DNA of 42,194 nt, taken from positions 1 to 42,194 of IMG/VR virus record IMGVR_UViG_3300046836_000222; one strand, written 5' to 3'. A program made the position numbers and the translations under genes. The DNA is from a virus. The notes under the pieces are model-generated. The model searched no databases. It saw only the letters and a list, made by a program, of their open reading frames with translations, and was not told the DNA's origin. Positions 2,504 to 36,150 of this stretch are shown here, piece after piece (positions within the stretch are counted from its first letter, which is position 1; the number at the start of each line of letters is the position of its first letter).

Positions 2504-2941
2504 CTAGCTCTTCGCGTTCGCCGTGGCCGCTTCCAGCGCCGCCAACTGGGCATTCGCCGCATCCAGCTCGGGCTGGAAATCCACCAATGCCGGCGTCTTC
2601 AGGTCCGCAATCTGCTGCTTCAGGTCCGCAATCGCCTGGGTCGCCGCGGCCACATCCGCCGTGAGAGTCGCATTGAACGCCTGCACTAAGGTCTTGAGTT
2701 CGTCAATCGTCTGGGCCATCTGCTGTACCTCGTGATGAATGTTATCGAGTTGGAGCGCAAGGAGTACACTGAGACCACTGCCGGGGTGAAACGGGCACAC
2801 GTTCGAACCGTCAGGCGTCCGATGCCAGCCGCCCTTCATCATCGTGGCGACCACGTCGGTGACATGCGGGGCGATGGTGAGGCTATTGGAGCAGAACGGC
2901 GTGTCGCAGGTAATCGTGAGCCAGCCGTGTTGATGGTCCAT
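2504..2941 (-). CDS. Zinc-binding N-terminus plus coiled coil, 145 aa
   Basis: Residues about 8-55 carry a Cys/His set (TCDTPFC ... GWHR ... CPFHPG) typical of a small zinc finger. From about residue 60 the protein is a long coiled coil with alanine/leucine heptads (DELKTLVQAFNATL, AIADLKQQIADLK, AQLAALEAAT). It may be a bridging or oligomeric adaptor. The ATG overlaps the TGA of the upstream HNH gene by one base (TGATG), indicating coupling. No specific function can be given. Confidence 0.6.
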   Translation of the reverse strand: MDHQHGWLTITCDTPFCSNSLTIAPHVTDVVATMMKGGWHRTPDGSNVCPFHPGSGLSVLLALQLDNIHHEVQQMAQTIDELKTLVQAFNATLTADVAAATQAIADLKQQIADLKTPALVDFQPELDAANAQLAALEAATANAKS

Positions 2942-3315
2942 CAGCGTCTCCGATCCGTGGTGATTTTCACATGCGGCGGTAACGGACGCACCCCAAACAG
3001 ATCCACCACCGCCGCCTCGTGAATCTCAAACGTGAGCCTCGCGTCGGCGTTCTTCCCGAAGATCCACAACTGCCGCGCATGGAGCATTGAGTGACATCGG
3101 TCGTCTAAAGTGACCAAGTTCTGTGTGCTCCACTGGCCGCCCTTCGACCGGAACGTCAGGTGGTGCAGATGGAGCCGTTCGTGGCGTCCACAGCACCGGC
3201 AGCGGCGTTTATCACGCTCGTTCACGGCGGCACGGGTGGCGCGCTCGAGCGCTGACAGCTCGCGCTTGATGTCCTGCTTCTCGAAGACGCGTGGGCGAGG
3301 TTTCGGGAACATCAT
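2941..3315 (-). CDS. HNH endonuclease, 124 aa
   Basis: A classic HNH domain occupies residues about 35-82: two CxxC-type knuckles around RCRCCGRHERLHLHHLTFRS, then NLVTLDDRCHSMLH. The HH pair and final H supply metal binding and catalysis. It is in the early operon and overlaps the upstream AP2/HNH-like gene by 4 nt. Standalone HNH proteins in phages act as homing endonucleases or assist packaging; here, far from terminase, homing or host-DNA attack is more likely. Confidence 0.8.
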   Translation of the reverse strand: MMFPKPRPRVFEKQDIKRELSALERATRAAVNERDKRRCRCCGRHERLHLHHLTFRSKGGQWSTQNLVTLDDRCHSMLHARQLWIFGKNADARLTFEIHEAAVVDLFGVRPLPPHVKITTDRRR

Positions 3316-3911
3316 CGCTCGAGCCGCATGAGACTAAGCCTCTGAAGGCGCACCGTGAGACGCCCATACATGGCGCCTGGATTCATCGCCAGGATGTGGG
3401 CGATCTGATTTACCGAAATAGGCTCGTCGTCTATCGTTAAGAACCGTAGCGATCTGCGCGTGTTCGCGTCCTGCTGCGCCCGTGTCGCCCAGCGACAATT
3501 GTTTGGTTCGTAATTACCAAACGTGTCGAGGCGATCGAGAGACATGCCGGGTTGACGTTCTCCCATGTCTTCTAGGAAGTTCTCAAAACTGTCCCAGCGG
3601 TCGCAGACCGTGACCCCGACAGCGCCGTACCGGCGATAATTCAGAGACGCTGTATTTGTGCATCTAGACCACATCGACTGCCACGATTTATACGTCACTG
3701 ACCTAGACATACCGTGCGTGCGAATCATGCATCCGCATGATTTTTGATGCCCCCGCCTAACTGCGGAGCCAGAGACGACCTTTTCGACACCACAGTCACA
3801 TCTAACCAGCCAGTGCATGTGTCCATTGCGAACGCCAGCACGCTCTTTCACGACAAGTCTATTGAAACGCAAACCCGTCATGTCTATTGCGAATCGTCCC
3901 TTAATGCCCAC
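3312..3911 (-). CDS. Phage HNH/AP2-like homing-type endonuclease, 199 aa
   Basis: It shows the pattern of a widespread phage protein family: a zinc-ribbon start (CDCGVEKVV...SCGC), then YKSWQSMWSRCTN, YRRYGAVGVTVCDRW, SFENFLEDMGERQPGMSLDR and NYEPNNCRWATRAQQ. In related proteins this block is the nuclease/AP2-type DNA-binding module. A C-terminal helix-turn-helix-like part (PISVNQIAHILAMNPGAMYG) probably reads DNA. Start: GTG at 3911, chosen because GAGG lies 7 nt upstream; it overlaps the end of the previous gene. It is likely a freestanding homing endonuclease. Confidence 0.75.
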   Translation of the reverse strand: MGIKGRFAIDMTGLRFNRLVVKERAGVRNGHMHWLVRCDCGVEKVVSGSAVRRGHQKSCGCMIRTHGMSRSVTYKSWQSMWSRCTNTASLNYRRYGAVGVTVCDRWDSFENFLEDMGERQPGMSLDRLDTFGNYEPNNCRWATRAQQDANTRRSLRFLTIDDEPISVNQIAHILAMNPGAMYGRLTVRLQRLSLMRLER

Positions 3912-4284
3912 TGCCGAGCCTCATCGTTTCTGCCTGGGTCCGCAAGAACTGCCGCAAGCTGATAATCATCTGCTCCACCAATTTCAGCGTGTCCCGACTC
4001 TCCGTGAACTTCGCCCACTGCGGCGAACACTCCGCCTCGATCTTCGCGCGGTTCGCTTTCTCCGCATTCCGCAGACAGTGCAGGAGAATCACCTTATACG
4101 CCTGGTCGGCCGTGCGCTGTTCATCCAGGCAGTTACCGAGAAGCGCCGTGGCCTGATTCAGCATCTCGGAGGCACGGTCGGGCGTGAGGTCGCACACGGA
4201 TGCCAGTTCCGCCTGGATGAGCCCTACGAGTTCACGGACGGTGCGCTCAGCCACGCTAGAAGGGTGGCTCATTGGGATCGTCAT
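3901..4284 (-). CDS. Helical early protein next to SSB, 127 aa
   Basis: Almost entirely helical: AERTVRELVGLIQAELASV, then ATALLGNCLDEQRTADQAYK and LKLVEQMIISLRQFLRTQAE. The layout matches small phage proteins that I recall being encoded beside SSB-like genes. Start ATG 4284 is preferred (GGGG a few bases upstream); ATG 4272 is an alternative. It overlaps the end of the SSB-like gene, so coupled expression is expected. It may be a partner of the replication or recombination machinery, inferred from the neighbourhood only. Confidence 0.55.
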   Translation of the reverse strand: MTIPMSHPSSVAERTVRELVGLIQAELASVCDLTPDRASEMLNQATALLGNCLDEQRTADQAYKVILLHCLRNAEKANRAKIEAECSPQWAKFTESRDTLKLVEQMIISLRQFLRTQAETMRLGSGH

Positions 4285-6523: not shown

Positions 6524-6733
6524 ATGGGTGTGTTGGAACTGTTCTTCTACATCGTGATCGTCGTGCTGATCGGCTGGGGGGCGGTGTGGCTGGTCGGGTA
6601 CCTCGCACCGGGGCATCCCGCGATCATCGACAAGCTGATCTGGCTGGTGGTGATCGTCATCGTCATCGTGACGCTGGCGAGTGCGTTCGGGCTGACGGCG
6701 GTTGATCCGCGCGTTCCACGACTGCGCGGCTAG
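6524..6733 (+). CDS. Two-helix small membrane protein, 69 aa
   Basis: Two clear transmembrane helices: LELFFYIVIVVLIGWGAVWL (about 4-23) and LIWLVVIVIVIVTLASAFGL (about 38-57), joined by GYLAPGHPAIIDK, which suggests a cytoplasm-facing loop. This resembles the Thivi_2564-type small membrane proteins of bacteria and phages. Good RBS (GAGGTGAG) before the ATG. It is on the plus strand, convergent with the late operon. A role in membrane takeover or exclusion is possible. Confidence 0.65.
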   Translation: MGVLELFFYIVIVVLIGWGAVWLVGYLAPGHPAIIDKLIWLVVIVIVIVTLASAFGLTAVDPRVPRLRG

Positions 6734-6738
6734 AGAGG

Positions 6739-6802
6739 GCCTAGGGCGCCGGGGCCACTGGACACAGTTAGAACCAGCGTTCCCTCCCCGGACGTCCTAG
6801 GC
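6739..6802. terminator. Composite hairpin between convergent genes
   Basis: GCCTAGG (6739-6745) pairs with CCTAGGC (6796-6802), and inside it CCGGGG (6749-6754) pairs with CCCCGG (6786-6791), with a 31-nt loop. It lies between the ends of the plus gene 6524-6733 and the minus gene 6797-6928, the expected place for a bidirectional transcription stop. No T-tract follows, so a factor-independent mechanism is doubtful. Confidence 0.35.
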
Positions 6803-6928
6803 TTTCTTGAGCGTCGGCTGCTTAAAAACCTTCGAGCAACAGACGCAGAGCCACAAGCCATCGCCCACCGGCTCAGGCTCAAGCGAACTCGAGCAGTACG
6901 GGCATTCTGGTGTGAACGGCTTACTCAT
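6797..6928 (-). CDS. Zinc-ribbon protein, 43 aa
   Basis: MSKPFTPECPYCSSSLEPEP, then DGLWLCVCCSKVFKQPTLKK: two CxxC knuckles separated by about 18 residues, the layout of a rubredoxin-like zinc ribbon. GCGAGG lies just upstream of the ATG, and the start is inside the end of the ParA-like gene (8-nt overlap). It is the last gene of the late block. Probably a nucleic-acid or protein contact factor. Confidence 0.6.
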   Translation of the reverse strand: MSKPFTPECPYCSSSLEPEPVGDGLWLCVCCSKVFKQPTLKKA

Positions 6929-7148
6929 TGGGTACCTCGCCGGCCGCCCACCGTGGGGCATTCACGAACTGCTGCTCCCGTTCCCACCGCTGCAGGGCCA
7001 CGACGTCATCCAAATCTGGACCGACGACGAAAAATCCGGCCTTGAGTGCTAAGAATGCCGTCGAGAGGCTGACGAGTCGTGACTTCCCAATCCCGCCGTT
7101 CTTGAGCGGACGGGCAATCAGACAGCGAACTTTCGGACGCTCGCTCAT
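6921..7148 (-). CDS. Short ParA-like (deviant Walker A) protein, 75 aa
   Basis: The N-terminal part KVRCLIARPLKNGGIGKSRL, then VSLSTAFLALKAGFFVVGPD resembles the first strand, deviant Walker A (xGGxGKS/T) and following strand with acidic end (GPDLDD) of ParA/MinD-type ATPases. At 75 aa it is much shorter than a full ParA (over 200 aa), with no Walker B or C-terminal part seen, so it is a truncated remnant or a minimal nucleotide-binding fragment. ATG 7148 overlaps the preceding gene by 4 nt. Chance resemblance cannot be excluded. Confidence 0.45.
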   Translation of the reverse strand: MSERPKVRCLIARPLKNGGIGKSRLVSLSTAFLALKAGFFVVGPDLDDVVALQRWEREQQFVNAPRWAAGEVPNE

Positions 7149-7399
7149 AGCGGTCCCCCTACAAGGAGGTGCCATAATAGAACACCGATAATCCCTGCCG
7201 CGACCGGACGCCACCACGGATGCTTGTGCATCTTCCGCTGGAGCCACTGGGAAATAGTCAGTCTGTGATGTTTATAGGCCCACACCTCGTAAACCACAAC
7301 TGCTAATAGCACTAGTCCGAAGAACCATCCAGCACCATTACCGGGAGGCGGCGGAGGAGGCGGCGGACTGGCCGTTTCCGTGGAACATGGGTCTTGCAC
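7145..7399 (-). CDS. Small membrane protein, complete copy, 84 aa
   Basis: GTG 7399 is chosen because the paralogue at 8233 also starts GTG before the shared QDPC motif. The product has a Pro-rich linker (eight prolines), a transmembrane helix (AGWFFGLVLLAVVVYEVWA), then LTISQWLQRKMHKHPWW and a second hydrophobic segment (VAAGIIGVLLWHLLVGG). Its start lies inside the promoter of RHH-HNH cassette 1. It is related to the truncated gene at 8078-8233. Position among lipoprotein and holin-like genes suggests a lysis or envelope role. Confidence 0.6.
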   Translation of the reverse strand: MQDPCSTETASPPPPPPPPGNGAGWFFGLVLLAVVVYEVWAYKHHRLTISQWLQRKMHKHPWWRPVAAGIIGVLLWHLLVGGPL

Positions 7400-7422
7400 T
7401 ATAGCCACGCTGTTGCTACACT
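7394..7422 (+). promoter_or_regulatory. Promoter of RHH-HNH cassette 1
   Basis: TTGCAC (7394-7399), 17-nt spacer, TACACT (7417-7422) with TGC directly before it (extended -10). The ATG of the RHH gene (7429) follows after 6 nt, so the mRNA should be leaderless. A 6-bp inverted repeat, CATGGG (7386-7391) and CCCATG (7426-7431), brackets the promoter and may be an operator for the RHH protein. Confidence 0.6.
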
Positions 7423-7428
7423 GTGCCC

Positions 7429-7608
7429 ATGCAACCAAAGACCGAAACGATGCGCCTGCGGATTAGCCCATTGGAAAAGCGTCTGTATCAAGCGAACGCA
7501 GAGGCATGTAATCTTCCTCTTTCGACGTACGTCCGGCTGATGTTGGGATTCGCCGTCACGCGCGGAGGCAACGCCGTTCTCGCGGAGATGAAGGCGAAGA
7601 GGCGCTAA
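7429..7608 (+). CDS. Ribbon-helix-helix regulator of cassette 1, 59 aa
   Basis: MQPKTETMRLRISPLEKRLY then QANAEACNLPLSTYVRLMLG: a beta strand (ETMRLRISP) and two helices (LEKRLYQANAEACN, LSTYVRLMLGFAV), the standard RHH (CopG/MobC-like) plan. RHH dimers bind operator DNA through the strand. The stop TAA abuts the ATG of the HNH gene (TAAATG), indicating coupled translation. It is on the plus strand, antisense to the late operon. It likely represses its own promoter or targets the nuclease. Confidence 0.7.
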   Translation: MQPKTETMRLRISPLEKRLYQANAEACNLPLSTYVRLMLGFAVTRGGNAVLAEMKAKRR

Positions 7609-8070
7609 ATGCCGCAACAGTACCAGCGCGGCCCTCAGAGTCCCCTCTATAACCGAGTGCGCGTAAAATGCGAGGTCTGTGGACGTAAAGAGGATCGAGT
7701 GCGGAATCGACTCGTTCCGGGACGACACATCTATTGCTCTAATGCGTGCCGAGCGATTGGCTGCCGCAAGACCGGGCGTCACCATCCATGCTGGAAAGGC
7801 GGTGTCATTCAACGTCCGAGCGGCTACCTCTACATCAAGGTTGGGCGAGAGCATCCAATGGCCGCGAAGGACGGGTACGTGCAACAGCACCGCTTGGTCA
7901 TGGCCGAACATCTGGGACGACTGCTCACGAAGGATGAGGTCGTGCATCACGTCAATGGCGTCAAGCACGACAATCGCATCGTGAATCTGCAATTAATGGC
8001 CTCAACTGGCGCCCATACGCTCCATCACGCCAAGCTCCGAGCGTTCCTGCGCTCAGAGAAAGAGCCCTAA
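7609..8070 (+). CDS. HNH homing endonuclease of cassette 1, 153 aa
   Basis: N-terminal zinc finger (CEVCGRKEDRV ... IYCSNACRAIGC, residues about 20-50), then WKGGVIQRPSGYLYIKVGRE and the HNH_3-type core: QQHRLVMAEHLGR, DEVVHHVNGVKHDNRIVNLQ, with catalytic HH, N and D residues visible. It is encoded against the phage late genes and ends exactly where the minus-strand membrane gene 8078-8233 loses homology with its paralogue, marking the insertion boundary. A mobile homing endonuclease paired with an RHH protein. Confidence 0.8.
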   Translation: MPQQYQRGPQSPLYNRVRVKCEVCGRKEDRVRNRLVPGRHIYCSNACRAIGCRKTGRHHPCWKGGVIQRPSGYLYIKVGREHPMAAKDGYVQQHRLVMAEHLGRLLTKDEVVHHVNGVKHDNRIVNLQLMASTGAHTLHHAKLRAFLRSEKEP

Positions 8071-8077
8071 TTCCAGA

Positions 8078-8233
8078 CTGACTGATCGTCAGATGCCCCG
8101 TCCGGCTCGCCCAGACCTCGTACACGAGCACCGCGAGCAGGAGGCCCCCAAAGACCCACCCGGCGAGGTTGGGATGCGCTGGCGGGGCAACAGGGGCCAC
8201 AGGAAGGGGATCTCCGCACGGGTCTTGAATCAC
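8078..8233 (-). pseudogene. Truncated copy of the small membrane protein
   Basis: GTG 8233 (overlapping the upstream TGA as GTGA) starts VIQDPCGDPLPVAP, then AGWVFGGLLLAVLVYEVWAS and GHLTISQ. Over about 52 residues it matches the complete gene at 7145-7399 (by eye about half identical, with shared QDPC, AGW, VYEVWA, LTISQ). After LTISQ the similarity stops abruptly at the end of the HNH cassette; the open frame then runs antisense through the HNH gene to 7961. The C-terminal membrane segment is missing, so the gene was probably cut by the cassette insertion. Confidence 0.6.
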
Positions 8234-8421
8234 GCAGGATGCTGTTGAAGCCAGAGATCATCGCGGGCAATCGAACTCGCCACCGCCTGCTGCAGCGCCG
8301 CAAGGACGTCCGCATCCGTCACGGGAGGCGCGTTCGGATCGGTCGCCGCGTGGTTCGTCTTGATCATCGCGATGATGCCAGGAATCTGGCCGATGATGAG
8401 GTTCAACAGGCCGGGATTCAT
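8230..8421 (-). CDS. Small phage protein with hydrophobic N-terminus, 63 aa
   Basis: Start ATG 8421 overlaps the lipoprotein stop by ATGA. MNPGLLNLIIGQIPGIIAMI is an amphipathic/hydrophobic helix, followed by PPVTDADVLAALQQAVASSI and WLQQHPA, a soluble helix. Such proteins occur in late regions next to holin-like genes. It is possibly membrane-associated and part of the lysis module; no specific assignment. Confidence 0.5.
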   Translation of the reverse strand: MNPGLLNLIIGQIPGIIAMIKTNHAATDPNAPPVTDADVLAALQQAVASSIARDDLWLQQHPA

Positions 8422-8822
8422 GGGATCTCCTGAATGATGGTCGAGAGCAACGCCACGTAGGGGGCAATCTTCGTCCACTCCGCCGCCGGCACGTCCTTCT
8501 GCAACTGCCCGATGGACGCTGTGACAATCGGCTTCCAGCCGCCCGGACTGGCCCCGATGACCGTCACGGCGCTCTTATGGAACGTCACGATCTTCCGCGT
8601 GGTCTCGGTCGAGAGCACCGGCGGCGTCTGGGCGTTCGCCGCGATGGCGACGTCCCGGATCGTGTCCAGGACGCGGATCGCCTGAATCCCTTGCCAGGCA
8701 GTTTTCCCCACAGGCGAAAGCGTGGGGGGCGCCTTGGCGCAGCCGACGATCAGCGCGAGCGCAAGCACGACGAGAGTGCGGGATCGGGTGCGTATCAATG
8801 TGAGTCTCCAGTCTGGGGTCAT
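8418..8822 (-). CDS. Phage lipoprotein, 134 aa
   Basis: A charged N-terminus (MTPDWRLTLIRTRSRT) is followed by a hydrophobic stretch ending in a lipobox (LVVLALALIVGC, with I-V-G-C), so Cys28 should be lipidated. The mature part is helical. Phage lipoproteins in the late block often act at the outer membrane: as a spanin subunit (Rz1-like) or in superinfection exclusion. At about 107 mature residues it is longer than Rz1. Flanked by ATGA overlaps. Confidence 0.6.
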   Translation of the reverse strand: MTPDWRLTLIRTRSRTLVVLALALIVGCAKAPPTLSPVGKTAWQGIQAIRVLDTIRDVAIAANAQTPPVLSTETTRKIVTFHKSAVTVIGASPGGWKPIVTASIGQLQKDVPAAEWTKIAPYVALLSTIIQEIP

Positions 8823-9124
8823 GGCTTGCTTTCCGACAGCGCGTTGATGGTGGCGTTATTGAGCACCGCCTGCGACGTCAGGGCGGCATTCGCGGAGAGG
8901 ATATTCGACGTCGCATCGGCAATCTTCGCGTCCACCTTACTGGCCGGAATCGCATACTGTCGCGCCAGCAGGGGAAGCAAGACGCCCGAGAGCGTCATCA
9001 ACGCGGCGTTCTGAGCCGGGGTGATGTTGATCCCGAACGCGATGAGGGTCTGGAGAATCGCTTGGACGAGGACGGTCCCGCCCGAGACAATCACCATGAG
9101 CGGTTCCGAGAGTGAACTCAGCAT
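8819..9124 (-). CDS. Holin-like membrane protein, 101 aa
   Basis: Two hydrophobic segments: LMVIVSGGTVLVQAILQTLI (about 9-28) and ALMTLSGVLLPLLARQYAIP (about 41-60), separated by GINITPAQNA. The TPAQxAALxxLxGxxLxLxAR pattern is common in small phage holin-like proteins. The rest is a soluble helix with Ala/Asn-rich repeats. Position in a cluster with a lipoprotein and other small membrane genes supports a lysis role. Start ATG 9124. Confidence 0.5.
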   Translation of the reverse strand: MLSSLSEPLMVIVSGGTVLVQAILQTLIAFGINITPAQNAALMTLSGVLLPLLARQYAIPASKVDAKIADATSNILSANAALTSQAVLNNATINALSESKP

Positions 9125-9125
9125 G

Positions 9126-9467
9126 TTATTTTACCCATGTGAAGCGTTGCACGTGACGAGCCTTCCGTCTGAGCCGATCGCCTTTCCATCTCGAGCGGAT
9201 AATCAACCCGGTACGACGCATCTCGTCTGCAAGCGCGATCAGGGAGTCCGTGAGATTCTTCTCGTAGTGGGCCAATATCTGTGGCGCCGTTGTCACCACC
9301 AGATCCGGCGCCATCGCATTCCCCGCAATCGTCTCGATCGTCGTACGACCGGTCGGCCATGTGACCTGCGCGTTGATGCGACCGACACAGAGCGCCGAGA
9401 GCGAAGACATCGACGGCATCCACTCCGACAACCAGACGGCTTCCGTTGGGCTTGAGACTTCTGTCAT
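9126..9467 (-). CDS. Hypothetical late protein, 113 aa
   Basis: ATG 9467 (MTEVSSPTEAVWLSEWMPSM) is preferred; an ATG at 9479 adds four residues. It contains NAQVTWPTGRTTIETIAGNA and an amphipathic, very basic C-terminus (RRTGLIIRSRWKGDRLRRKA) that would suit membrane or nucleic-acid contact. Its 5' end lies within the promoter/operator region of cassette 2. No endolysin motif was recognised, though the location is where one might be expected. Confidence 0.5.
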   Translation of the reverse strand: MTEVSSPTEAVWLSEWMPSMSSLSALCVGRINAQVTWPTGRTTIETIAGNAMAPDLVVTTAPQILAHYEKNLTDSLIALADEMRRTGLIIRSRWKGDRLRRKARHVQRFTWVK

Positions 9468-9476
9468 CGTAACTCG

Positions 9477-9507
9477 CATTGTATGGACATCTGCGCTACA
9501 ATGTCCA
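9477..9507 (+). promoter_or_regulatory. Promoter/operator of RHH-HNH cassette 2
   Basis: A good -10 (TACAAT, 9497-9502) lies 6 nt before the RHH ATG (9509), predicting a leaderless mRNA; no clear -35. Two overlapping perfect inverted repeats cover it: CATTGTA (9477-9483) with TACAATG (9497-9503), and TGGACAT (9484-9490) with ATGTCCA (9501-9507). Such symmetry over the -10 is expected of an autoregulated RHH operator. Confidence 0.6.
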
Positions 9508-9508
9508 G

Positions 9509-9661
9509 ATGAAACGAAAAACCACGTCGATTCAATTGCGCGTCACGCCGCTGGAGAAGAAAATCATCCAAAAAGCCGCCGAGAAGGACGGTCTCCCGAT
9601 GTCGGCGTGGATTCGCCGCTCCCTGTTGTCCGAACTCGACGTCATCCTGTTGGCGAAGTAG
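9509..9661 (+). CDS. Ribbon-helix-helix regulator of cassette 2, 50 aa
   Basis: MKRKTTSIQLRVTPLEKKII then QKAAEKDGLPMSAWIRRSLL: a beta strand (TTSIQLRVTP) and two helices, the RHH plan, clearly parallel to the cassette 1 regulator (shared LRxxPLEKxxxxxA...LPxSxxxR). The stop TAG is directly followed by the HNH ATG (TAGATG). It likely binds the palindromes over its own promoter. Start ATG 9509; a TTG further upstream at 9479 would extend through the promoter and is rejected. Confidence 0.75.
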   Translation: MKRKTTSIQLRVTPLEKKIIQKAAEKDGLPMSAWIRRSLLSELDVILLAK

Positions 9662-10240
9662 ATGGCCGTCAACACGCGTGACCCTAGATACCGTCGGATT
9701 ACGCTGTCGTGTGGTGAATGCGACACGAAGGTGGTTCGCAAGCGATGCAGGGTGTCGCCGAGAGAGTTTCCGTATTGCTCTCCAGCCTGCAAGGCGAAAG
9801 GCATGCTGAATCGCAACGGGGGACACCTGAATGGTCGCTGGAGAGGCGGAATCTGCCAATCTGACTACGGCTACGTCTTGGAGTACGTCAGACGAGATCA
9901 TCCGTTCGCCTCAATGCTCACGAAAGGATATATACCCCAACATCGGCTTGTGATGGCGACCCATCTTGGGCGCCCATTAACGCGCGATGAAGCCGTCCAC
10001 CACATCAACGGAATCAAAAACGACAATCGAATAGAAAACCTGCAACTCTTATCGCATTCCGAACACGCACGGGTACACAACGTGGTTGCACCACCGTGTT
10101 GGTGCGGCGGAAAGCACCTAAGCCGTGGCATGTGTTCCAAGCATTATCAACGATGGCTCAAATCAGACGCCAATAAGAATGGGATAGGCGGGGTCTGGAC
10201 ATACTCTGACCCCGAAAGGCCCAGCTCTGTATGTGCGTAA
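9662..10240 (+). CDS. HNH homing endonuclease of cassette 2, 192 aa
   Basis: Same plan as cassette 1: an N-terminal zinc finger (CGECDTKVV ... YCSPACKAKG), WRGGICQSDYGYVLEYV, then the HNH core IPQHRLVMATHLGR, DEAVHHINGIKNDNRIENLQ. It has an extra C-terminal zinc finger (CWCGGKHLSRGMCSKHYQRW). The last about 25 residues lie antisense to the 3' end of the glycosidase-like gene, so the natural C-terminus was probably shorter and the frame reads into target DNA at the insertion point. A probable mobile endonuclease. Confidence 0.8.
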   Translation: MAVNTRDPRYRRITLSCGECDTKVVRKRCRVSPREFPYCSPACKAKGMLNRNGGHLNGRWRGGICQSDYGYVLEYVRRDHPFASMLTKGYIPQHRLVMATHLGRPLTRDEAVHHINGIKNDNRIENLQLLSHSEHARVHNVVAPPCWCGGKHLSRGMCSKHYQRWLKSDANKNGIGGVWTYSDPERPSSVCA

Positions 10241-21345: not shown

Positions 21346-21537
21346 ATGAACACTCTATTGACGCGCCTCTGGCACGCCATCAGGCCGACTCCGACGCCCT
21401 TCCGTTGCCCGATCTGTGGACACGACGCGACCCAGGCCGCGACGGATATGACCTTTCGCGTCCACGACCCCCACGCCTCCGTGCAGCCCGTCTGTGTGGC
21501 GTGCGCGCAACGGGCCTGGCGGGACTGGGTGGCGTAG
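21346..21537 (+). CDS. Lone plus-strand zinc-ribbon protein, 63 aa
   Basis: MNTLLTRLWHAIRPTPTPFR, then CPICGHDATQAATDMTFRVH and CVACAQRAWRDW: two CxxC pairs about 33 residues apart form a zinc ribbon behind an amphipathic N-terminal helix. It is the only plus-strand gene in the structural block apart from the HNH cassettes and exactly fills the 216-bp space between two minus genes. With its own promoter it looks like a moron: a small gene expressed independently of late transcription. Confidence 0.6.
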   Translation: MNTLLTRLWHAIRPTPTPFRCPICGHDATQAATDMTFRVHDPHASVQPVCVACAQRAWRDWVA

Positions 21538-21539
21538 CA

Positions 21540-21776
21540 TCAGTTGTTCACCAGCAAGTACTCCGCTTCAGCCACGTTCATATTCGCAAGTCCAGGCGCA
21601 CTGGCCGCGGCGCGCACGGTAGCGACGTCCTTCGCGGCGAGCGTCGTGGAGTCGGTCCCTCCACTTGAGAGGCGGAGGGCGGCGATGTGGTGCGTGAACG
21701 CCCAGGTGAGGTCGGTGTAGGCGTTCGGATAGCCTCCCGCCCCGGCCGCCACGCCATTCCAGAACAGCAACATCAT
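21540..21776 (-). CDS. Small structural-region protein, 78 aa
   Basis: MMLLFWNGVAAGAGGYPNAY, TWAFTHHIAALRLSSGGTDS and APGLANMNVAEAEYLLVNN: mixed hydrophobic and small residues, no membrane helix of full length. It overlaps the tail gene upstream by 4 nt, and its stop is 2 nt from the stop of the opposing plus-strand gene. Function unknown. Confidence 0.5.
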   Translation of the reverse strand: MMLLFWNGVAAGAGGYPNAYTDLTWAFTHHIAALRLSSGGTDSTTLAAKDVATVRAAASAPGLANMNVAEAEYLLVNN

Positions 21777-22462
21777 GAGCCGACTCCTAAGAGGGCCAGC
21801 GTCCCGGCAACGGTCCCGCCACCGCCGCCGCCGGCAGGTTTGAAGACCGCAATCGCGGCACTGTTTTCAATCGAGGTGGCGTCCCAACTCCAGACGGGGT
21901 TTTCCGTCACGATGGACGTCTGAATAATGTAAGCCAGTCCACCGCCGAGAGCGGTCGAGCCATTGAACTGGTTCTGGTCGGTGATCGACAAACTGCTGTC
22001 AATCGCAATCGTCCGCGCATTGACAAGACTGAGCATCGAGACGACGAGCGAGTTCGCGTTCGCGGGCGTCACGCTCCCCGGTGTCGTCGTCGTGGACCCC
22101 GCGCTCCCGTTGTGGTTGTAAGTATCAAACGCGGCACTATCCGTGCCCGCAAACGCCGCCATGTAGATCGACGGATACACACTGATCCCGCCCGTGTAGG
22201 TAAAGGTGTGCAGCGTGCCCACCGTCGGAGACGCCGCGCAGTAGTACAGATGGGCGCGCGTGTTGGTGGACGAGCCGACCGGTGTCAGCGACACCCATGT
22301 ATTGCTCTTGGAGTCTTGGAGCGTCTGGACCGCGCCGCCGGCGGTATCGTCAGACACCGCGACCACCAGGAGCGTGGCGCCAGTCGTGGTCACGGTGCCG
22401 GTCGTCACGGTCGCCGTGTCCCCTGACTGCGCCGCGATGTTGCTGATAAACGTAATCGCCAT
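21773..22462 (-). CDS. Beta-sandwich tail protein, 229 aa
   Basis: Repeating beta strands (ATVTTGTVTTTGATLLVVAV, NTWVSLTPVGSSTNTRAHLY, SIYMAAFAGTDS, SLVVSMLSLVNA) with Thr/Ser/Gly richness. The layout matches small phage tail/virion proteins where TLLVVAVS... and Y..A.P.vG..hTf.. form a jelly-roll. The C-terminus has a Gly6 hinge (AGGGGGGTVAG) before a short hydrophobic end. Probably exposed on tail or head. Confidence 0.55.
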   Translation of the reverse strand: MAITFISNIAAQSGDTATVTTGTVTTTGATLLVVAVSDDTAGGAVQTLQDSKSNTWVSLTPVGSSTNTRAHLYYCAASPTVGTLHTFTYTGGISVYPSIYMAAFAGTDSAAFDTYNHNGSAGSTTTTPGSVTPANANSLVVSMLSLVNARTIAIDSSLSITDQNQFNGSTALGGGLAYIIQTSIVTENPVWSWDATSIENSAAIAVFKPAGGGGGGTVAGTLALLGVGS

Positions 22463-24084
22463 TAACAGTTCACCGAGAAGACGTTGACCAAGACCGAGAC
22501 CGCACTGGTGATCCCCACGTTGCCGTAGATCAACACATACAGCCGTTTCGTGACCGGATCGAACGCCACCCCATCACAGCGTGCGTGATACGGCGTCCCA
22601 GAGACGTCGCCTTGCACTGGCGAGCTGTGATCGGGCCACTGGATTTCCCACTGTGCGGCCGGTGTCACGGCATTGGAGGCTCGACTCCCGAGTGCGACCT
22701 GGGCATACTGGGCGGGATCGAAAATCTGCCCGATGTTGATCTGGCGTGCGGCGGTGGGGCCGTTGCCCATGTAGCGGACGCCGCACATGACCGATCCTCC
22801 CACCAGCGGTAAGGACGTGTCGTCGTTCCCCCCGCCCGCGAGCGTCTGCCCAGAAAACTTCGTGAGCGACTGGACGCCATTGTTTTGGAACGTGATCGTC
22901 CGACCCGAGATCGCCGAGACCCGTCCGAGCGAGAACGGATAATTCGACAAGCCCTGTGTCCCGATCGTATCGACCAGCACGATGTCCCCCACGATGACGG
23001 CGTCCGTGGGGATGTCTTTGCTGATCGTGAACTGGCTGGCCGAGGCGACCGACGCGATGGTCGCGGAGATGTTGCCCCCCATGAGACTCGCAAACGTCAC
23101 GATCCCGTGCTTGGCTGCCCCTTCAATCCACACTCCGCCGTTGACGTAGTCGTAGGCCGCCCAGCCCGTTTGACCCTCAATCAGCGCGTGACTATCCACT
23201 CCGTATTCCGTGACAGGCCATGGCGTCCGATCCCCGCGCATCGTCGGCGGATCGTCGTAGAGAAACTTCGCCAAGGGCGTCAGCGGACCCTGATAGAAGT
23301 TCGTCATGTCGCTCGTATGCGGATTCGCCGTGATCGGATCGCTCGTCGTATCCGGGTGCCGCATCGCAAAGAGGTTCTGGCCGGTCGGTTTTGGTCCATA
23401 GGAACCAATCGACAGGTTCGGCCCGAAGCCGACACCCAGCGTCATCGCACTATTGAGGAGCGTATTCACCGCGAAACTGTCGGGAATCCGCATCGGCTGC
23501 CCGACCCAGCGTGAGCCGTGTGTGGAGAGCGGCGACACGCGCCAACAGCCAATCCCTGTGCCGGTATGACCCGTATCGTCCAACGTGCTGTAGCCCAGCG
23601 AAAAATCGCTCTCGGTGTTATTCGAGGAGGGATACCCGACCTTCGTCGTCCAATACATCCGGCTTGTCGTGTCATCCCAAAACAGCGCGTTCGCCCGATA
23701 GCCATTCGACCAGCCCGTGCCACTCGCGAGTCCGAGCGCGTCGTTGGGATACTGACTCAGCATCGTGCTCCAGATGTCGCCCCATGTCCGTACAAGGGTC
23801 GCGCTATTGAACGGACTGCTCGTGAGGAGGTTCCCATCAGAGGGAATGGCATACTCCACAAGATAGCCTTCGGCTGAGATCGAAAAGAGCGTCGGGGTGC
23901 CACTGAGGCGTCGGAGCGTCAAGCCCGTGTACGTGTTCGTATAGGCGCCGCTATGCCCAAACTGATCGGGCGTCTCCCCGCCCCGCGTGGCGGGGACAAA
24001 TGCCCCGAGCAACGTGAGATCCCCTTGCCCCAGCACGGGCAGACTCGCTGACGCCCGCTTCCGACGAAGCCGAATCGAACTCAC
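22462..24084 (-). CDS. Large beta-rich tail protein, 540 aa (receptor-binding candidate)
   Basis: GTG start. A basic N-terminus (MSSIRLRRKRASASLPVLGQ) precedes a beta-propeller-like body with repeated blades (NALFWDDTTSRMYWTTKVGY, HGIVTFASLMGG, CDGVAFDPVTKRLYVLIYGN). Phage proteins of this kind are tail fibres or adsorption proteins with kelch/YVTN-like blades. No lectin or hydrolase motif is certain. The neighbour 24088-24807 and the beta-sandwich gene 21773 support a tail-tip cluster. Confidence 0.5.
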   Translation of the reverse strand: MSSIRLRRKRASASLPVLGQGDLTLLGAFVPATRGGETPDQFGHSGAYTNTYTGLTLRRLSGTPTLFSISAEGYLVEYAIPSDGNLLTSSPFNSATLVRTWGDIWSTMLSQYPNDALGLASGTGWSNGYRANALFWDDTTSRMYWTTKVGYPSSNNTESDFSLGYSTLDDTGHTGTGIGCWRVSPLSTHGSRWVGQPMRIPDSFAVNTLLNSAMTLGVGFGPNLSIGSYGPKPTGQNLFAMRHPDTTSDPITANPHTSDMTNFYQGPLTPLAKFLYDDPPTMRGDRTPWPVTEYGVDSHALIEGQTGWAAYDYVNGGVWIEGAAKHGIVTFASLMGGNISATIASVASASQFTISKDIPTDAVIVGDIVLVDTIGTQGLSNYPFSLGRVSAISGRTITFQNNGVQSLTKFSGQTLAGGGNDDTSLPLVGGSVMCGVRYMGNGPTAARQINIGQIFDPAQYAQVALGSRASNAVTPAAQWEIQWPDHSSPVQGDVSGTPYHARCDGVAFDPVTKRLYVLIYGNVGITSAVSVLVNVFSVNC

Positions 24085-24087
24085 GCG

Positions 24088-24807
24088 TTAGATCTCCACA
24101 TAGGTCATCACGCCCCCGATGGCGACGGACCCCGAGAGGTTAATATCCATCGCTTCGCCCGCGACCGTCTCGAACCAGCCGACAGGATTGAACGGCAAAC
24201 ACGCGCCGCCGCCCGCGGCTGCGATGTAGAAGAGGCCCGTGAGATCGGTCGGGGTGACATGCGACTGAAACTTCACGTTGACCGCGCCGTTGCCCATGAA
24301 GACCACCGAGAGACACCGTAACTTCTTCGCGGAGACGAGCGCGATGAAGGAGTTGACCCCCGAGGCCGACACCGCGATCTTCGCAAACTTCGGCGTGAGA
24401 GCGGTCGTGCCGTTCTGGATCGTGTCGGTCGCGAGCTTGGCGGTGATGGTGTCCGTCGTGGCCGCGACCGCCGTCGCCACATTCGCCCCCGTCGAATCGA
24501 CCTGCAGCACCTTCACGGCATGGGCCGTCGTGTCGTTGACCGCCGTGCCGCCCGAATCCACCTGGGTAACAGTCGCCTTCAGATTCGCAATCGTCGCCTG
24601 AGCGGCCGTCACGGTGCCGATGGACGCAGACCCTGCTGGGAGGGCCGTCGTCAACGTGACACTCAAGCCATTGGTCCCATCAACCGGCGCTGTGGTCGAT
24701 GTGGTGTCCCCGAGGATGACGACCTGCCGGCGATTACTGGACGAATCCGTGAACGTGGCGATGTTGGTGCCAGATCCCGCAGTTATAGGTACGTTAGTCT
24801 CAGCCAA
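24088..24807 (-). CDS. Virion surface protein, 239 aa
   Basis: Starts TTG 24807 with a strong GAGGAG 7 nt upstream. The N-terminus (MAETNVPITAGSGTNIATFT) then RRQVVILGDTTST matches a common phage protein type with an extended Ala/Thr/Val-rich coil (about 55-135: ATIANLKATVTQVDSGG) and a C-terminal beta domain (RCLSVVFMGNGAVNVKFQSH, LPFNPVGWFETVAGEAMDIN). Probably a fibre-like or decoration protein. Assignment by pattern only. Confidence 0.5.
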   Translation of the reverse strand: MAETNVPITAGSGTNIATFTDSSSNRRQVVILGDTTSTTAPVDGTNGLSVTLTTALPAGSASIGTVTAAQATIANLKATVTQVDSGGTAVNDTTAHAVKVLQVDSTGANVATAVAATTDTITAKLATDTIQNGTTALTPKFAKIAVSASGVNSFIALVSAKKLRCLSVVFMGNGAVNVKFQSHVTPTDLTGLFYIAAAGGGACLPFNPVGWFETVAGEAMDINLSGSVAIGGVMTYVEI

Positions 24808-24819
24808 GTGCGATCTCCT

Positions 24820-25797
24820 CTACCATGACCATGTAACCGTGTCGGCGGGATACTGCCCCCCGAACTGTGACCATCGCTGCGGCTTCTTGCGAAGCGACAG
24901 CAGAAACGCACCGTCCGTCTGGACGAAGTCCCGAAACTGTTGCGTGCGGGCGATGTACTCCCCGGCTGCTGCCTGGAATCGCGCATCGCCGCGATACTCG
25001 TAGTCCTTCATCCGAATCCCGATCCCGATCAGATCGTGGAAGTCCTGCGGCAACAGCGGTTCGTCCGTCGTCGTCAGATCCGGCGTCGTGCGCGTGTAGT
25101 CCACGTAATACGTGAGCGCCGTCGCCGGGACCGGGAACCAGTGGATACCGAGGTAGCGCGCATTCGTCTGCCCTTTCGGAATCACCGCGAGCAGGTTCCC
25201 GACCGTCACGGCATCGTAGAGACTCACGTCTCCGACACACGCCGCACTGAGGGCAAACTTGTCAATCTCGATGTAGTCCGTCTGTCCGCCGACCTGCACA
25301 CGCGAGGTGCCCGTCAACGCCTGCGCGGAGGGCTGATGGAGAAAGCCTCCCGTGCGGATCGCCGTGAGACTGACCGTAGGACCGGATGTATCAGAGGCGC
25401 TCGAACTCACGGCCCAGACGCCTGTCGCCGCGGCCGGTTGCGCTTGCACGGCCTGAAACCCACTCCGCGCGAACGCCCACGGATTGCCCGTGCTCGTCAG
25501 ACCCGGATCTCTGCGGGCCAGTTCCGTCATGGTCGTTTCGCGCAGGAGCGTGTTGTTCGTGCGGTCCACGATGCGCTTGATGCGGGCCACGTTCAGCGGG
25601 AGGCCGATGCGCGGAGCATTCGCCACCGAGGTGACGGGCGTCGTGTCGTCCCGCAGCATTTCCATGCCGGGAAGCGAGAGGAGCGCCCGATGCACTTCGT
25701 TGGCGTGATCGGTCAGCCGCGTCACGACCGCCGTCGCTGGCGAAGGCGCGTAGCCCAACCGCTCGTAACAGCCGCTCAGAATCGAGGCGAGCGTCAT
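24820..25797 (-). CDS. Head-tail adaptor-type protein, 325 aa
   Basis: N-terminal helices (MTLASILSGCYERLGYAPSP, TRLTDHANEVHRALLSLPGM) are like those of podoviral adaptor proteins that join portal to nozzle. A beta section follows (GTSRVQVGGQTDYIEIDKFA), with LHW-like FPVPATALTYYVDYTR and a helical C-terminus (DFHDLIGIGIRMKDYEYRGD). The position, following capsid and small head genes and upstream of the nozzle, supports this. The ATG overlaps the next gene by 4 nt. Confidence 0.6.
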   Translation of the reverse strand: MTLASILSGCYERLGYAPSPATAVVTRLTDHANEVHRALLSLPGMEMLRDDTTPVTSVANAPRIGLPLNVARIKRIVDRTNNTLLRETTMTELARRDPGLTSTGNPWAFARSGFQAVQAQPAAATGVWAVSSSASDTSGPTVSLTAIRTGGFLHQPSAQALTGTSRVQVGGQTDYIEIDKFALSAACVGDVSLYDAVTVGNLLAVIPKGQTNARYLGIHWFPVPATALTYYVDYTRTTPDLTTTDEPLLPQDFHDLIGIGIRMKDYEYRGDARFQAAAGEYIARTQQFRDFVQTDGAFLLSLRKKPQRWSQFGGQYPADTVTWSW

Positions 25798-33196: not shown

Positions 33197-35719
33197 CTAG
33201 CGGACACCCCAGCGGGAGGGGGCCATCGGCTTGCGGAGGGCTTGTTTCACGAGCGCCCCCACGGTGCCGGGAGAGAACGACGGAGACGACACGGTCCCAA
33301 TAGCGGGAGCGCCGGGGGACATCGCCCCGTAGCGCCACGCGTCACAATTATGCACGAGGACGCCCTCAGCGTAATACTCGCCCGCGTGCTCCACGGTGAG
33401 GTTATAGACCGGGATCCCGCCGCGCACTCTCAATTCCACGCTCTCGACTACGGTAGGCGCAGGAGAGGGAGCAACTACGGGTGGGTGCGTACTTGTTCGC
33501 GCGGAAGGGCGATCCGCACACCACGCAGACGCGATCCACGTCGTCACACCGTTGGGCGCGGCGCCATCGAGACTTACAGACATTCCCGCAGAACCGTCCG
33601 CCGCATTGAGCGGAGACGTCGAGAAAACGCCCGCGACAGTGGTCGCATGACTTCTCCACCCCAGGATGCGGTTTCGCGATGCTGTGCGCGGCCTGCTGCC
33701 GATGCCACGCGCGTCCCTCTGCCGACCGATGCCAATCACGAGAGGCGTCCACCATCTTCGCATGGTGCGTCGGATCGACGGGGCGGCCTTTCGCGTGTTG
33801 GCTGAGATGGTCGAATGCGGGGAGACATTCGAGATTCCCGAGGGCGTTATTGCGTGGATCGTTGTCGCGATGGTGGATGTGATGGCCGCGCGGAATCGGT
33901 CCCACCAGACGACGCCATTTCGCGCGGGCGTCTCGGTGACACCAGGAGAGGTCGGGTCGCTGTCCCATGCCGAGAGTATATCACCGTATCTCAGCGTATC
34001 CATACTCCTAAACTCCCCGTCGGCCCAGATCGGATGATTGTCCGTGCCCAGGAGTGTCCGCCCCGTAGAGAGTTCAACGCTCCATAGTCGATCGGTATAG
34101 CCCGTGACTCCACATGCGCGCACGCCCCGAAGTCCCTGACGCGTCCAGACGCGATCCCCGACGACGATGGTCTCGATCGGCCGTTCTCCGTGTTCCGTCG
34201 CGATCCGTGTGCCGGCAACAAGGCAGGCGTGGTCATCGCCCGTACTGTCACAATCGTCTGGGTTCTGCTTACTGGACTGTATGGAGGGTATCGTACGTGT
34301 CAAGTATCCGGCATCGGGATGGAACACCAGCCACGGGATCCCATCAGGGGCGTCTCGGAGGAGTCCTTGACACCGCTTCCACCCGTTGACGCGGTCGTTG
34401 TCCCCACGGATGATCGGCAGGCCGTAGTAGGAGAGCGTCTGGGCAATCGACTGGCCGAGAAAGCCATCCTTACTATGCGTGGCGCCGGTCTTGTTGAACA
34501 TCGAGGGATCACCGACCGTGTAGGTCGAGGCGCTATCGATCCCTAACTCGGCGTCCCGCGCCAAGACTCGTCTCGCGACTTCGGGTTCATCGAGGCCCTG
34601 AAACTTCCAGTCGTCCCGGATGTACAACCGATGGTCTGGCAGGACCGCCCACCAGAGGACACACCCCGGGGCGTTGAAGCCCCAATCCATCGACCGGAAC
34701 CACCGACATCCACTCGGCGTCCCCCAGTCCCGCACATGGTGAGAGGCCCGGTACCGCGAGAAAAACTGCCCCGCAAAGACCCGCCAGTCCCCGTGTCTGA
34801 GTTGCTCGTACCGCCACCGAGGCAGAATCGCGAGCTTCTGGGACTCGTACTCCGGGTCCTGGTAGGGGTTATCTTCCAGAGACGCCGGCATATAGAGGTA
34901 GTTCTTCGGGTCGTAGACCTTCGCCAAGGCCGGGTAGACCTCGAAGTCCGGCGTATGGTCAATGAAGAAGTCCAGGAGCCACTGACTGCACGGACCCCCA
35001 GGATTGCTCGCGACGAAGAATCGTGGCTTCACCGGACGGCCCGCTTGGTCCCGGTACACCTCTCTGGCGCGGGTAGACAGTTCCCCCAAGGGACTGATGC
35101 CGTCATCCATCAAGGGGTACTGGGAACCCTCCTCCGCCACAATCGCCCCGTAGTTCGTGCCCAGATGGTGCCGAATCGCCGCCGCATCGCTCATGTGCCC
35201 ACAGTCGATGTAACTCCCGCTCGAGGGGAAGTAGACCTGCGCCGGCGGTCCCTGCTTAAACACCCCGCCCAGCAGCGGGACTTCCTGCTCCATAAACCGC
35301 AAGTGCGTCTTTTTGAGTTCGTCGTTCGTCTCCCGCAATAACAACGCCGTATGCCCCGGCGTCATCAACGACCGCCGATACAACCACCACCGCATCCCGT
35401 GACTCTTCCCAGGCCCCGCCTGCCCGCCCCACAGCACATACGGCGCGTCCGTCTCCTCAAACGCACACTGGCTCGGAAGAGGCAAGTTCAGACACCGCTT
35501 CCCCGCCTCCCCGCCCAACTCCTTCGCCGCCTTCACCGAGACGTCCACGATGATCGCCCCATCGACCTGCTTCTGCGTACACGGCGGGTGCGCACAGAAC
35601 CAACACCGCCGCCCCAGAAACTCCCCCACCACCATCGGTCCCTTGCACCAGGTGCAGATGGCCATGTGGTGCTTGGTCCCTATCGGGTCACGAAGCAGGT
35701 CTGCGTAGACCGGACTCAT
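33197..35719 (-). CDS. terL: Terminase large subunit interrupted by an intein, 840 aa
   Basis: Start ATG 35719 overlaps the upstream HNH stop by ATGA. N-terminal zinc finger (CTWCKG...CWFCAHPPC). ATPase domain: Walker A GGQAGPGKSHG, Walker B-type YGAIVAEEGSQ, motif III FFVASNPGG. Nuclease domain: FRSMDWGFNAP (first acid), TYTVGDPSMFN (second acid), and GDDHA-CDAWRYG (third acid), where the intein is inserted between A and C. After splicing the extein is about 547 aa, normal for TerL. It cuts and translocates DNA into the head. Activity should require splicing because the third acidic motif is split. Confidence 0.9.
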   Translation of the reverse strand: MSPVYADLLRDPIGTKHHMAICTWCKGPMVVGEFLGRRCWFCAHPPCTQKQVDGAIIVDVSVKAAKELGGEAGKRCLNLPLPSQCAFEETDAPYVLWGGQAGPGKSHGMRWWLYRRSLMTPGHTALLLRETNDELKKTHLRFMEQEVPLLGGVFKQGPPAQVYFPSSGSYIDCGHMSDAAAIRHHLGTNYGAIVAEEGSQYPLMDDGISPLGELSTRAREVYRDQAGRPVKPRFFVASNPGGPCSQWLLDFFIDHTPDFEVYPALAKVYDPKNYLYMPASLEDNPYQDPEYESQKLAILPRWRYEQLRHGDWRVFAGQFFSRYRASHHVRDWGTPSGCRWFRSMDWGFNAPGCVLWWAVLPDHRLYIRDDWKFQGLDEPEVARRVLARDAELGIDSASTYTVGDPSMFNKTGATHSKDGFLGQSIAQTLSYYGLPIIRGDNDRVNGWKRCQGLLRDAPDGIPWLVFHPDAGYLTRTIPSIQSSKQNPDDCDSTGDDHACLVAGTRIATEHGERPIETIVVGDRVWTRQGLRGVRACGVTGYTDRLWSVELSTGRTLLGTDNHPIWADGEFRSMDTLRYGDILSAWDSDPTSPGVTETPARNGVVWWDRFRAAITSTIATTIHAITPSGISNVSPHSTISANTRKAAPSIRRTMRRWWTPLVIGIGRQRDARGIGSRPRTASRNRILGWRSHATTVAGVFSTSPLNAADGSAGMSVSLDGAAPNGVTTWIASAWCADRPSARTSTHPPVVAPSPAPTVVESVELRVRGGIPVYNLTVEHAGEYYAEGVLVHNCDAWRYGAMSPGAPAIGTVSSPSFSPGTVGALVKQALRKPMAPSRWGVR
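33402..33968 (-). CDS. HNH endonuclease encoded out of frame inside the intein, 188 aa
   Basis: MGQRPDLSWCHRDARAKWRR, then GHHIHHRDNDPRNNALGNLE, a typical HNH core with HH...N...H; next a WH.S.EG..WH repeat (SRDWHRSAEGRAWHRQQ), and two zinc fingers (CDHCRGRFLDV ... FCGNVCKSRWRR, CVVCGSPF ... CSLSCA). This is the family usually fused in frame within phage inteins, but here it lies in a different frame, with TGA upstream and TAA at 33402. It has its own extended -10 promoter and no RBS. Probable homing nuclease of the intein. Confidence 0.75.
   Translation of the reverse strand: MGQRPDLSWCHRDARAKWRRLVGPIPRGHHIHHRDNDPRNNALGNLECLPAFDHLSQHAKGRPVDPTHHAKMVDASRDWHRSAEGRAWHRQQAAHSIAKPHPGVEKSCDHCRGRFLDVSAQCGGRFCGNVCKSRWRRAQRCDDVDRVCVVCGSPFRANKYAPTRSCSLSCAYRSRERGIESARRDPGL
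33975..34002 (-). promoter_or_regulatory. Promoter of the intein-internal HNH gene
   Basis: Minus strand: TGA-TATACT (extended -10, hexamer at 33980-33975) lies 6 nt before the ATG at 33968; TGGATA with a 16-nt spacer is a possible -35. Directly upstream are two tandem 10-bp repeats with one mismatch (33991-34000 GATACGCTGA and 33981-33990 GATACGGTGA). The sequence also codes for the intein. Confidence 0.5.
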
Positions 35720-36150
35720 CGATGGCCCTTCGGACCCCAGCGGGCAAACCGGGTCGCCACCGCCTTCGCACGAGACGCCGCCGCTTCGGGTGCGTGTTCC
35801 TTCATATGGCACCAGACGCACAGACGCTCAAGGTTCTCCAGCCTGTTGTCCAGAAAGTCCCGGTTCTTGTGGTGCAGGCACGACTGGCGCGTCTCCCCAC
35901 AGCGTTCACAGGGCCGAGGCGGGTAGTGACGTCTCGCCCACCCCAACGCCCCAGACCGTGTCGTGAACGGCTTCGACGGATCCCGCGCGACGAACAGCCC
36001 CCTCGACGCCAACGCCTCACGCGCACAGACCGCTCCGCAATACACCATCCGCCGGTACTGCCACCGCCCACGCGCCCTCGCTTGCGCATCCTGACTCTCC
36101 GCGTTTGGGACATCCAGCGCCGCTTGACACCATCGGCATACACGTTCCAT
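35716..36150 (-). CDS. HNH endonuclease before terL, 144 aa
   Basis: N-terminal zinc finger (CRWCQAALDV ... YCGAVCAREA), then PPRPCERCGETRQSCLHHKN, FLDNRLENLERLCVWCHMKE: a compact HNH with HH and a final H. It overlaps terL by ATGA. HNH proteins next to terminase often assist DNA packaging in cos phages, but many are homing enzymes; both remain possible. It has its own promoter (extended -10 with 6 nt to ATG). Confidence 0.8.
   Translation of the reverse strand: MERVCRWCQAALDVPNAESQDAQARARGRWQYRRMVYCGAVCAREALASRGLFVARDPSKPFTTRSGALGWARRHYPPRPCERCGETRQSCLHHKNRDFLDNRLENLERLCVWCHMKEHAPEAAASRAKAVATRFARWGPKGHR

Follow-up and report, generated by a model that had tools for sequence, protein, structure and literature searches.

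The stretch at positions 7429 to 8070 of a viral DNA raises the question of whether two small genes, running against the late genes among which they lie, make up a mobile unit that regulates itself. The DNA is the IMG/VR viral record IMGVR_UViG_3300046836_000222, analysed as one window of 42,194 nt (positions 1 to 42,194). A first-pass annotation had described there a gene for an RHH protein and one for a zinc-finger HNH endonuclease, joined by TAAATG, and a second pair of the same build at 9509. Both ORFs of the first pair were indeed found at 7429-8070, with significant family matches, and the second pair was confirmed as well. The four genes, all on the + strand, are:

7429..7608, + strand: RHH protein 1 (59 aa, NikA-like; Pfam PF21983, E 8.4e-7, above the gathering score)
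7609..8070, + strand: HNH endonuclease 1 (153 aa; PF13392 (HNH_3), E 5.6e-10; phrog_20891, E 2e-24)
9509..9661, + strand: RHH protein 2 (50 aa, NikA-like; PF21983, E 1.7e-10; PDB 2ba3 (NikA), E 2.2e-4)
9662..10240, + strand: HNH endonuclease 2 (192 aa; PF13392, E 3.5e-12)

In pair 1 the TAA stop codon of the RHH gene and the ATG start codon of the HNH gene abut with 0 bp between them (...cgcTAAATGccg); in pair 2 a TAG is followed by an ATG, again with no base between. The orientation opposite to the late genes holds for both pairs. Identity between the pairs is 40% for RHH and 44% for HNH. By codon position, the divergence of the two HNH genes was 0.42/0.36/0.68, i.e. mostly at the third position, and that of the two RHH genes 0.54/0.38/0.65, with a less clear third-position bias. 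This mainly third-position divergence of the two copies implies that the genes were kept under selection. The two-gene unit is therefore preserved in two deeply diverged copies, and the RHH and HNH genes have probably travelled and been maintained jointly over a long time.

The family to which each protein belongs could be assigned. HNH 1 consists of an N-terminal CxxC...CxxxC zinc knuckle and a C-terminal HNH_3 domain with an intact HHxNG...DNR signature; besides the knuckle, profile scans revealed no separate HTH or NUMOD domain. With scores of 39.1 and 46.2 bits (curated cut-off 24.8) both nucleases are members of HNH_3 (PF13392), and H113, H114, N116, D121 and N122 (HNH 2 numbering) are invariant over 44 relatives, i.e. 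the catalytic residues are intact. The RHH proteins reached 29.5 and 41.3 bits against NikA-like RHH (PF21983; cut-off 27) and are members of that family; for RHH 1 there was also an NCBIfam match to MbpA (2e-5), far under the cut-off. All Pfam, NCBIfam and PDB matches of the RHH proteins are mobilization accessory proteins. A NikA/MobC accessory protein in the strict sense adjoins a relaxase and an oriT; here the partner is an HNH_3 nuclease, and no relaxase was found among the window proteins scanned (part of the ORFs). Two other assignments were rejected. A type II toxin-antitoxin pair does not fit the scores (RelB, 13.4 and 25.4 bits versus a cut-off of 50; TacA1, 17.7 versus 21), and the HNH partner matches no known toxin. 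The HNH 2 tail also gave PDB matches to protein G (best E 0.015), which we take to be chance, the tail being partly antisense to another gene. The pair had been put forward as a distinct unit. No named system of this kind was found, but its HNH half is an ordinary free-standing homing-type HNH_3 phage nuclease; the RHH-HNH pair is thus a rare two-gene variant of the phage free-standing HNH nucleases, a known class.

A capsid-protein search led to two close relatives, G004 (IMGVR_UViG_3300046836_000153, capsid protein 96% identical) and G005 (IMGVR_UViG_3300046829_000049, 92%). The first aligns collinearly with the window, DNA identity being about 74-98% and mostly 80-93%, and it provides an empty site for cassette 1:

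7250..8076, no strand: insert carrying cassette 1, 827 bp, missing from G004, with CAGT (ACTG on the + strand) at both borders

In blastn alignments G004 34563-35337 corresponds to window 8077-8809 and G004 35334-35845 to window 6733-7249, with a 4-bp overlap: the counterpart of 7249 runs directly into that of 8077, and the empty junction reads CAGTCAGTGGTTCCAGCGG. On either side the sequences are collinear (82-83% identity), the difference being limited to the 827 bp; the 4-bp border lies directly at the 3' end of HNH 1. Neither the HNH 1 protein nor the RHH profile found a match in G004 or G005. Close relatives thus offer an occupied and an empty allele of one site, which is the mark of a free-standing homing endonuclease, and the comparison that had been suggested for defining the ends gave exact borders, with CAGT at each; the empty allele is known from one relative, G004, the site being outside the G005 coverage and spanned by no outgroup. 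Insertion is the simplest reading of the direction of change, on grounds of parsimony, since the native 5' and 3' halves of the interrupted gene form one gene without a gap. No terminal inverted repeats or transposon-like ends were found around either cassette, and no Rfam family reached its gathering score.

The interrupted gene codes for a membrane protein, and the insert contributes to it:

7250..7399, − strand: foreign substitute for the 5' half of the membrane gene, within the insert, 150 bp, GTG start at 7399
7145..7249, − strand: native 3' half, joined in frame to the substitute half and agreeing with G004 at 32/34 aa
8077..8233, − strand: stranded native 5' half (remnant), 47/51 aa identical to G004, then reading into the cassette

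Where the intact G004 gene reads ...VYEVWAAKTGHLTISQ|WFQRKMHKHPWWRP..., the native 5' half of the window (...VYEVWASRTGHLTIS) is stranded before the HNH stop codon, and a second 5' half (VQDPCSTETASPPPPPPPPGNGAGWFFGLVLLAVVVYEVWAYKHHRLTIS) lies beyond the RHH start, in frame with the native 3' half. Put together, the remnant (92% aa identity) and the native 3' half (94%) give exactly one gene of the G004 type. The substitute half matches the G004 half at 28/50 aa (56%), with changes of 0.46/0.30/0.80 by codon position, and its GC3 is 0.48 versus 0.745 for the native remnant. On account of this mostly third-position change and foreign GC3, it appears to be a working homologue derived from another phage. 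The membrane gene had been annotated as broken: its native 5' half is indeed severed, but the insert brings a substitute and leaves a full-length hybrid ORF (7145-7399, − strand), which is predicted to be expressed. All the elements of a mobile-ORF gene hybrid are present, namely a nuclease ORF, a foreign partial duplicate and a hybrid in frame. No donor phage with an RHH-HNH pair beside an intact gene of the inserted type was found; the search for the inserted half matched only G004.

The second cassette lies in a larger region of difference. The window is without any DNA match in G004 from 8810 to 10162, and identity resumes at 10163, which is the stop codon of a 324-aa late gene; the last 78 bp of HNH 2 are antisense to the 3' end of that gene. 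Next to the RHH 2 gene is:

9126..9479, − strand: late gene starting 29 bp from RHH 2, sharing 31% identity with its positional counterpart in G004

To judge from this identity value, it was probably imported along with cassette 2. Cassette 1 shows a similar spacing, the hybrid late gene beginning about 30 bp from the RHH ATG. Both cassettes have the HNH 3' end at or just past the border of native DNA and the RHH end adjoining an imported gene. At the same border, G004 has a different antisense HNH_3 gene (214 aa, without RHH); in G005 a third HNH-like gene, also antisense, is represented by its tail, the contig ending within it. As each of the three phages has an antisense HNH gene of its own at this border, site 2 is, on the evidence of these genomes, a nuclease hot spot. 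Two other places in the window may be recorded here. Two more HNH nuclease genes (2941-3315 and 3312-3911, both − strand, i.e. the late strand) overlap by 4 bp; 3097-3915 is without DNA match in G004, where a different HNH-like gene occupies the interval (L142, 8944-9676). In the structural genes, 3.5 kb (21354-24828) are likewise without DNA match in the collinear G004 comparison.

The 25 bp preceding each RHH gene were then considered as control regions:

7404..7428, + strand: putative promoter/operator of cassette 1 (GCTACACTGTGC), dyad with 8/12 pairs, centred 13 bp before the ATG
9484..9508, + strand: putative promoter/operator of cassette 2 (GGACAT-10-ATGTCC over GCTACAATGTCC), dyad with 8/12 pairs

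The block GCTACAnTGTnC is common to both, and the RHH start codon comes a few bases after a -10-like hexamer. The dyad centre is identical in the two cassettes, with a joint score of 16/24 that was reached by 2/5000 random pairs of window stretches, a figure which overstates the independence of the dyads as the two control regions are homologous DNA. The outer dyad arms differ between the copies yet still pair (CAC...GTG versus GGACAT...ATGTCC). The dyad over the putative promoter is where an RHH autorepressor would be predicted to bind. As to the leaderless promoter of its own with which the pair had been credited, the conserved block shortly before both ATGs speaks for it, but a sigma-70 scan gave no + strand promoter before either RHH gene (the single hit of the region was on the − strand at 9507-9478, with 1.4 expected); leaderless transcription of RHH-HNH is possible, to judge from the short distance between the hexamer and the start codon. 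On the − strand, a promoter-like TGGACA-18-TACAAT (9507-9478) lies within the RHH 2 control region and overlaps the late-gene start at 9479. There the two strands have -10 hexamers that mirror each other (ATTGTA...TACAAT), and the region may be a divergent promoter.

How common the pair is was addressed by seeking HNH relatives in viral contigs, GTDB contigs, phages and plasmids. Many HNH_3 relatives were obtained, and 98 distinct HNH loci (97 other viral and one bacterial) were inspected for RHH neighbours by means of a profile of the two window RHH proteins and a Pfam scan of 86 upstream ORFs. Among the 97 other viral loci, an RHH gene upstream of HNH was seen in one weak case, L102, whose RHH-like ORF matched CcdA below the cut-off (E 0.007). 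In that locus (108-801) the 54-aa RHH-like ORF overlaps an HNH frame whose N-terminal part has no usual start codon; the two may form an RHH-HNH arrangement that is frameshifted or starts at ATT. Among 400 genomes of one phylum, 13 had HNH relatives, none of them (0/13) with an RHH gene seen upstream. Scans of viral contigs with each RHH alone gave no relative, tblastn of RHH 2 in phages gave chance-level hits only, and a literature search for the RHH and HNH combination yielded a single paper, which deals with another subject. The search for the pair in phage and bacterial genomes that had been called for thus showed HNH usually without RHH: the pair is rare, with perhaps one independent parallel (L102), but its members are not chance neighbours, because the identical joining recurs in two copies. 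Since almost all relatives of this HNH are without it, the RHH appears dispensable for the nuclease's general job. Another nuclease-regulator neighbourship was noticed in Mycobacterium phage Jabbawokkie (gp30-gp31; L121, 1788-2639), where a related HNH gene is directly followed by a convergent gene for a small HTH DNA-binding protein.

The reading that we favour, and regard as reasonably probable, is that of a free-standing HNH homing-type cassette whose first gene codes for an autorepressor of the MobC/NikA RHH type, the flank having been co-converted with the insertion. The cassette is predicted to be mobile. We infer cleavage, its site and the repair path from the structure of the locus. 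In a mixed infection, the HNH protein would nick or cut, near CAGTCAGTGG|TTCCAGCGG, a membrane gene that has no cassette. Pairing of the 3' side of the break with the conserved QRKMHKHPWW-coding stretch of the homologous gene of the donor phage would follow; copying would run back through the donor 5' half and on through RHH-HNH, and microhomology (CAGT) would serve to join the new end to the native 5' half left stranded. A break, donor copying and CAGT joining would yield exactly the present structure. By delivering a replacement gene start, the insert would repair the damage in the same event, and the recipient would lose the uncut site. An RHH dimer bound to the dyad over the -10 region would repress its own operon and keep nuclease expression low.

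The order of events could be the reverse, the cassette state being ancestral and the 827 bp lost from G004. The direct CAGT repeats at both borders would permit such a deletion and no outgroup spans the site, but the remnant 5' half keeps a coding pattern and 92% aa identity without a 3' half of its own, because of which an earlier interruption must have occurred in any case; we hold this reversal to be quite unlikely. A different doubt concerns cause. Late-gene modules may have been exchanged by ordinary mosaicism, the nuclease being a passenger at a recombination border: the whole 8810-10162 module, and not the cassette alone, differs from G004, and nucleases are often found at boundaries of inter-phage exchange (PMC10448857). 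At site 1, however, a difference confined to 827 bp between collinear flanks, with its 4-bp border at the HNH 3' end, does not suggest such an exchange, and three unrelated HNH genes at one border of site 2 suggest nuclease-driven traffic. Mosaicism with the nuclease as a passenger seems doubtful, if still worth considering.

The role of the RHH protein may also be read otherwise. It could be mainly a targeting subunit, as NikA and MobC are for relaxases, which binds beside the cut site and either loads the HNH nickase or stimulates it, the two forming a two-protein homing nuclease. This would agree with the exclusively mobilization-related matches and with an HNH 1 that has a zinc knuckle as its only further domain. 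Against it, no copy of the dyad was seen by inspection at the insertion junction, and relatives of similar build do without RHH. Targeting as the main role is therefore possible but rather unlikely; it is compatible with autorepression, the two not being mutually exclusive, and in this cassette the RHH is possibly also a targeting partner. A toxin-antitoxin or anti-phage unit, with the RHH as an antitoxin-type repressor and the HNH attacking rival phages, appears very unlikely. The weak RHH resemblance to RelB/TacA-type antitoxins and the weak ZorE-like scores of the HNH core point that way, but the ZorE matches span only the 20-30-residue core, far below the cut-off, an insertion with a substitute gene half fits homing and not defence, and the exclusion of rival phages can also be a side effect of homing nucleases.

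The homing cassette that we favour has counterparts in several known systems. Mobile-ORF gene hybrids have been described in fungal mitochondria (Allomyces atp6; Glomus atp6, atp9, cox2 and nad3; PMC3630166). There too, a protein gene has received a free-standing homing-type nuclease gene along with a foreign, diverged copy of part of itself; the hybrid reads through and a native piece is stranded. In the mitochondrial cases, however, the C-terminal part is replaced and a LAGLIDADG or GIY-YIG nuclease is co-transcribed with the host gene, whereas the phage cassette replaces the N-terminal part and has an antisense HNH_3 nuclease with an RHH partner. The T4 mob genes (PMC2988022, PMC10448857) resemble the cassette in that their HNH genes are outside introns, near or within essential genes and at exchange boundaries, with occupied and empty alleles. 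Most of them are reported to be promoterless, and no description of one with a partner gene of the RHH type was found; insertions of the T4 mobE type split nrdA, whereas cassette 1 supplies a substitute half. As to regulation, MobC of plasmid RA3 is an RHH protein that autorepresses the bicistronic mobC-nic operon via an imperfect promoter palindrome and aids the nicking system and transfer (PMC4175270). As in mobC-nic and with NikA of R64, an RHH (NikA-like) gene directly precedes the gene of the nicking enzyme in the cassette, behind an imperfect promoter palindrome; in RA3, in contrast, the enzyme is a relaxase acting at oriT, MobC has 176 aa and the role is conjugation, against an HNH nuclease and RHH proteins of 50-59 aa here. 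I-TevI, from the T4 td intron, represses its own promoter (PMC2988022) by its own DNA-binding domain, a task that a separate RHH gene would take over in the phage cassette.

In its most far-reaching form, which we put forward as speculative and consider improbable as a whole, the cassette would be a selfish nuclease of two proteins, with a NikA-type RHH that serves both as repressor of the operon and as guide for an HNH nickase. It would spread as a nuclease pair plus a replacement gene start, each insertion repairing the gene it breaks and installing a resistant foreign allele, and would be the bacterial-virus counterpart of the mitochondrial mobile-ORF hybrids, with a relaxosome-like targeting partner. 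To conclude, the locus offers a clean comparison of an occupied with an empty site for a nuclease cassette of phages. The insertion appears to carry a spare part for its target gene, i.e. a way for a nuclease to enter a coding sequence with neither intron nor intein and without destroying the gene, and it suggests that the operon plan of plasmid transfer, an RHH repressor and then a nicking enzyme, is used by a selfish HNH gene.
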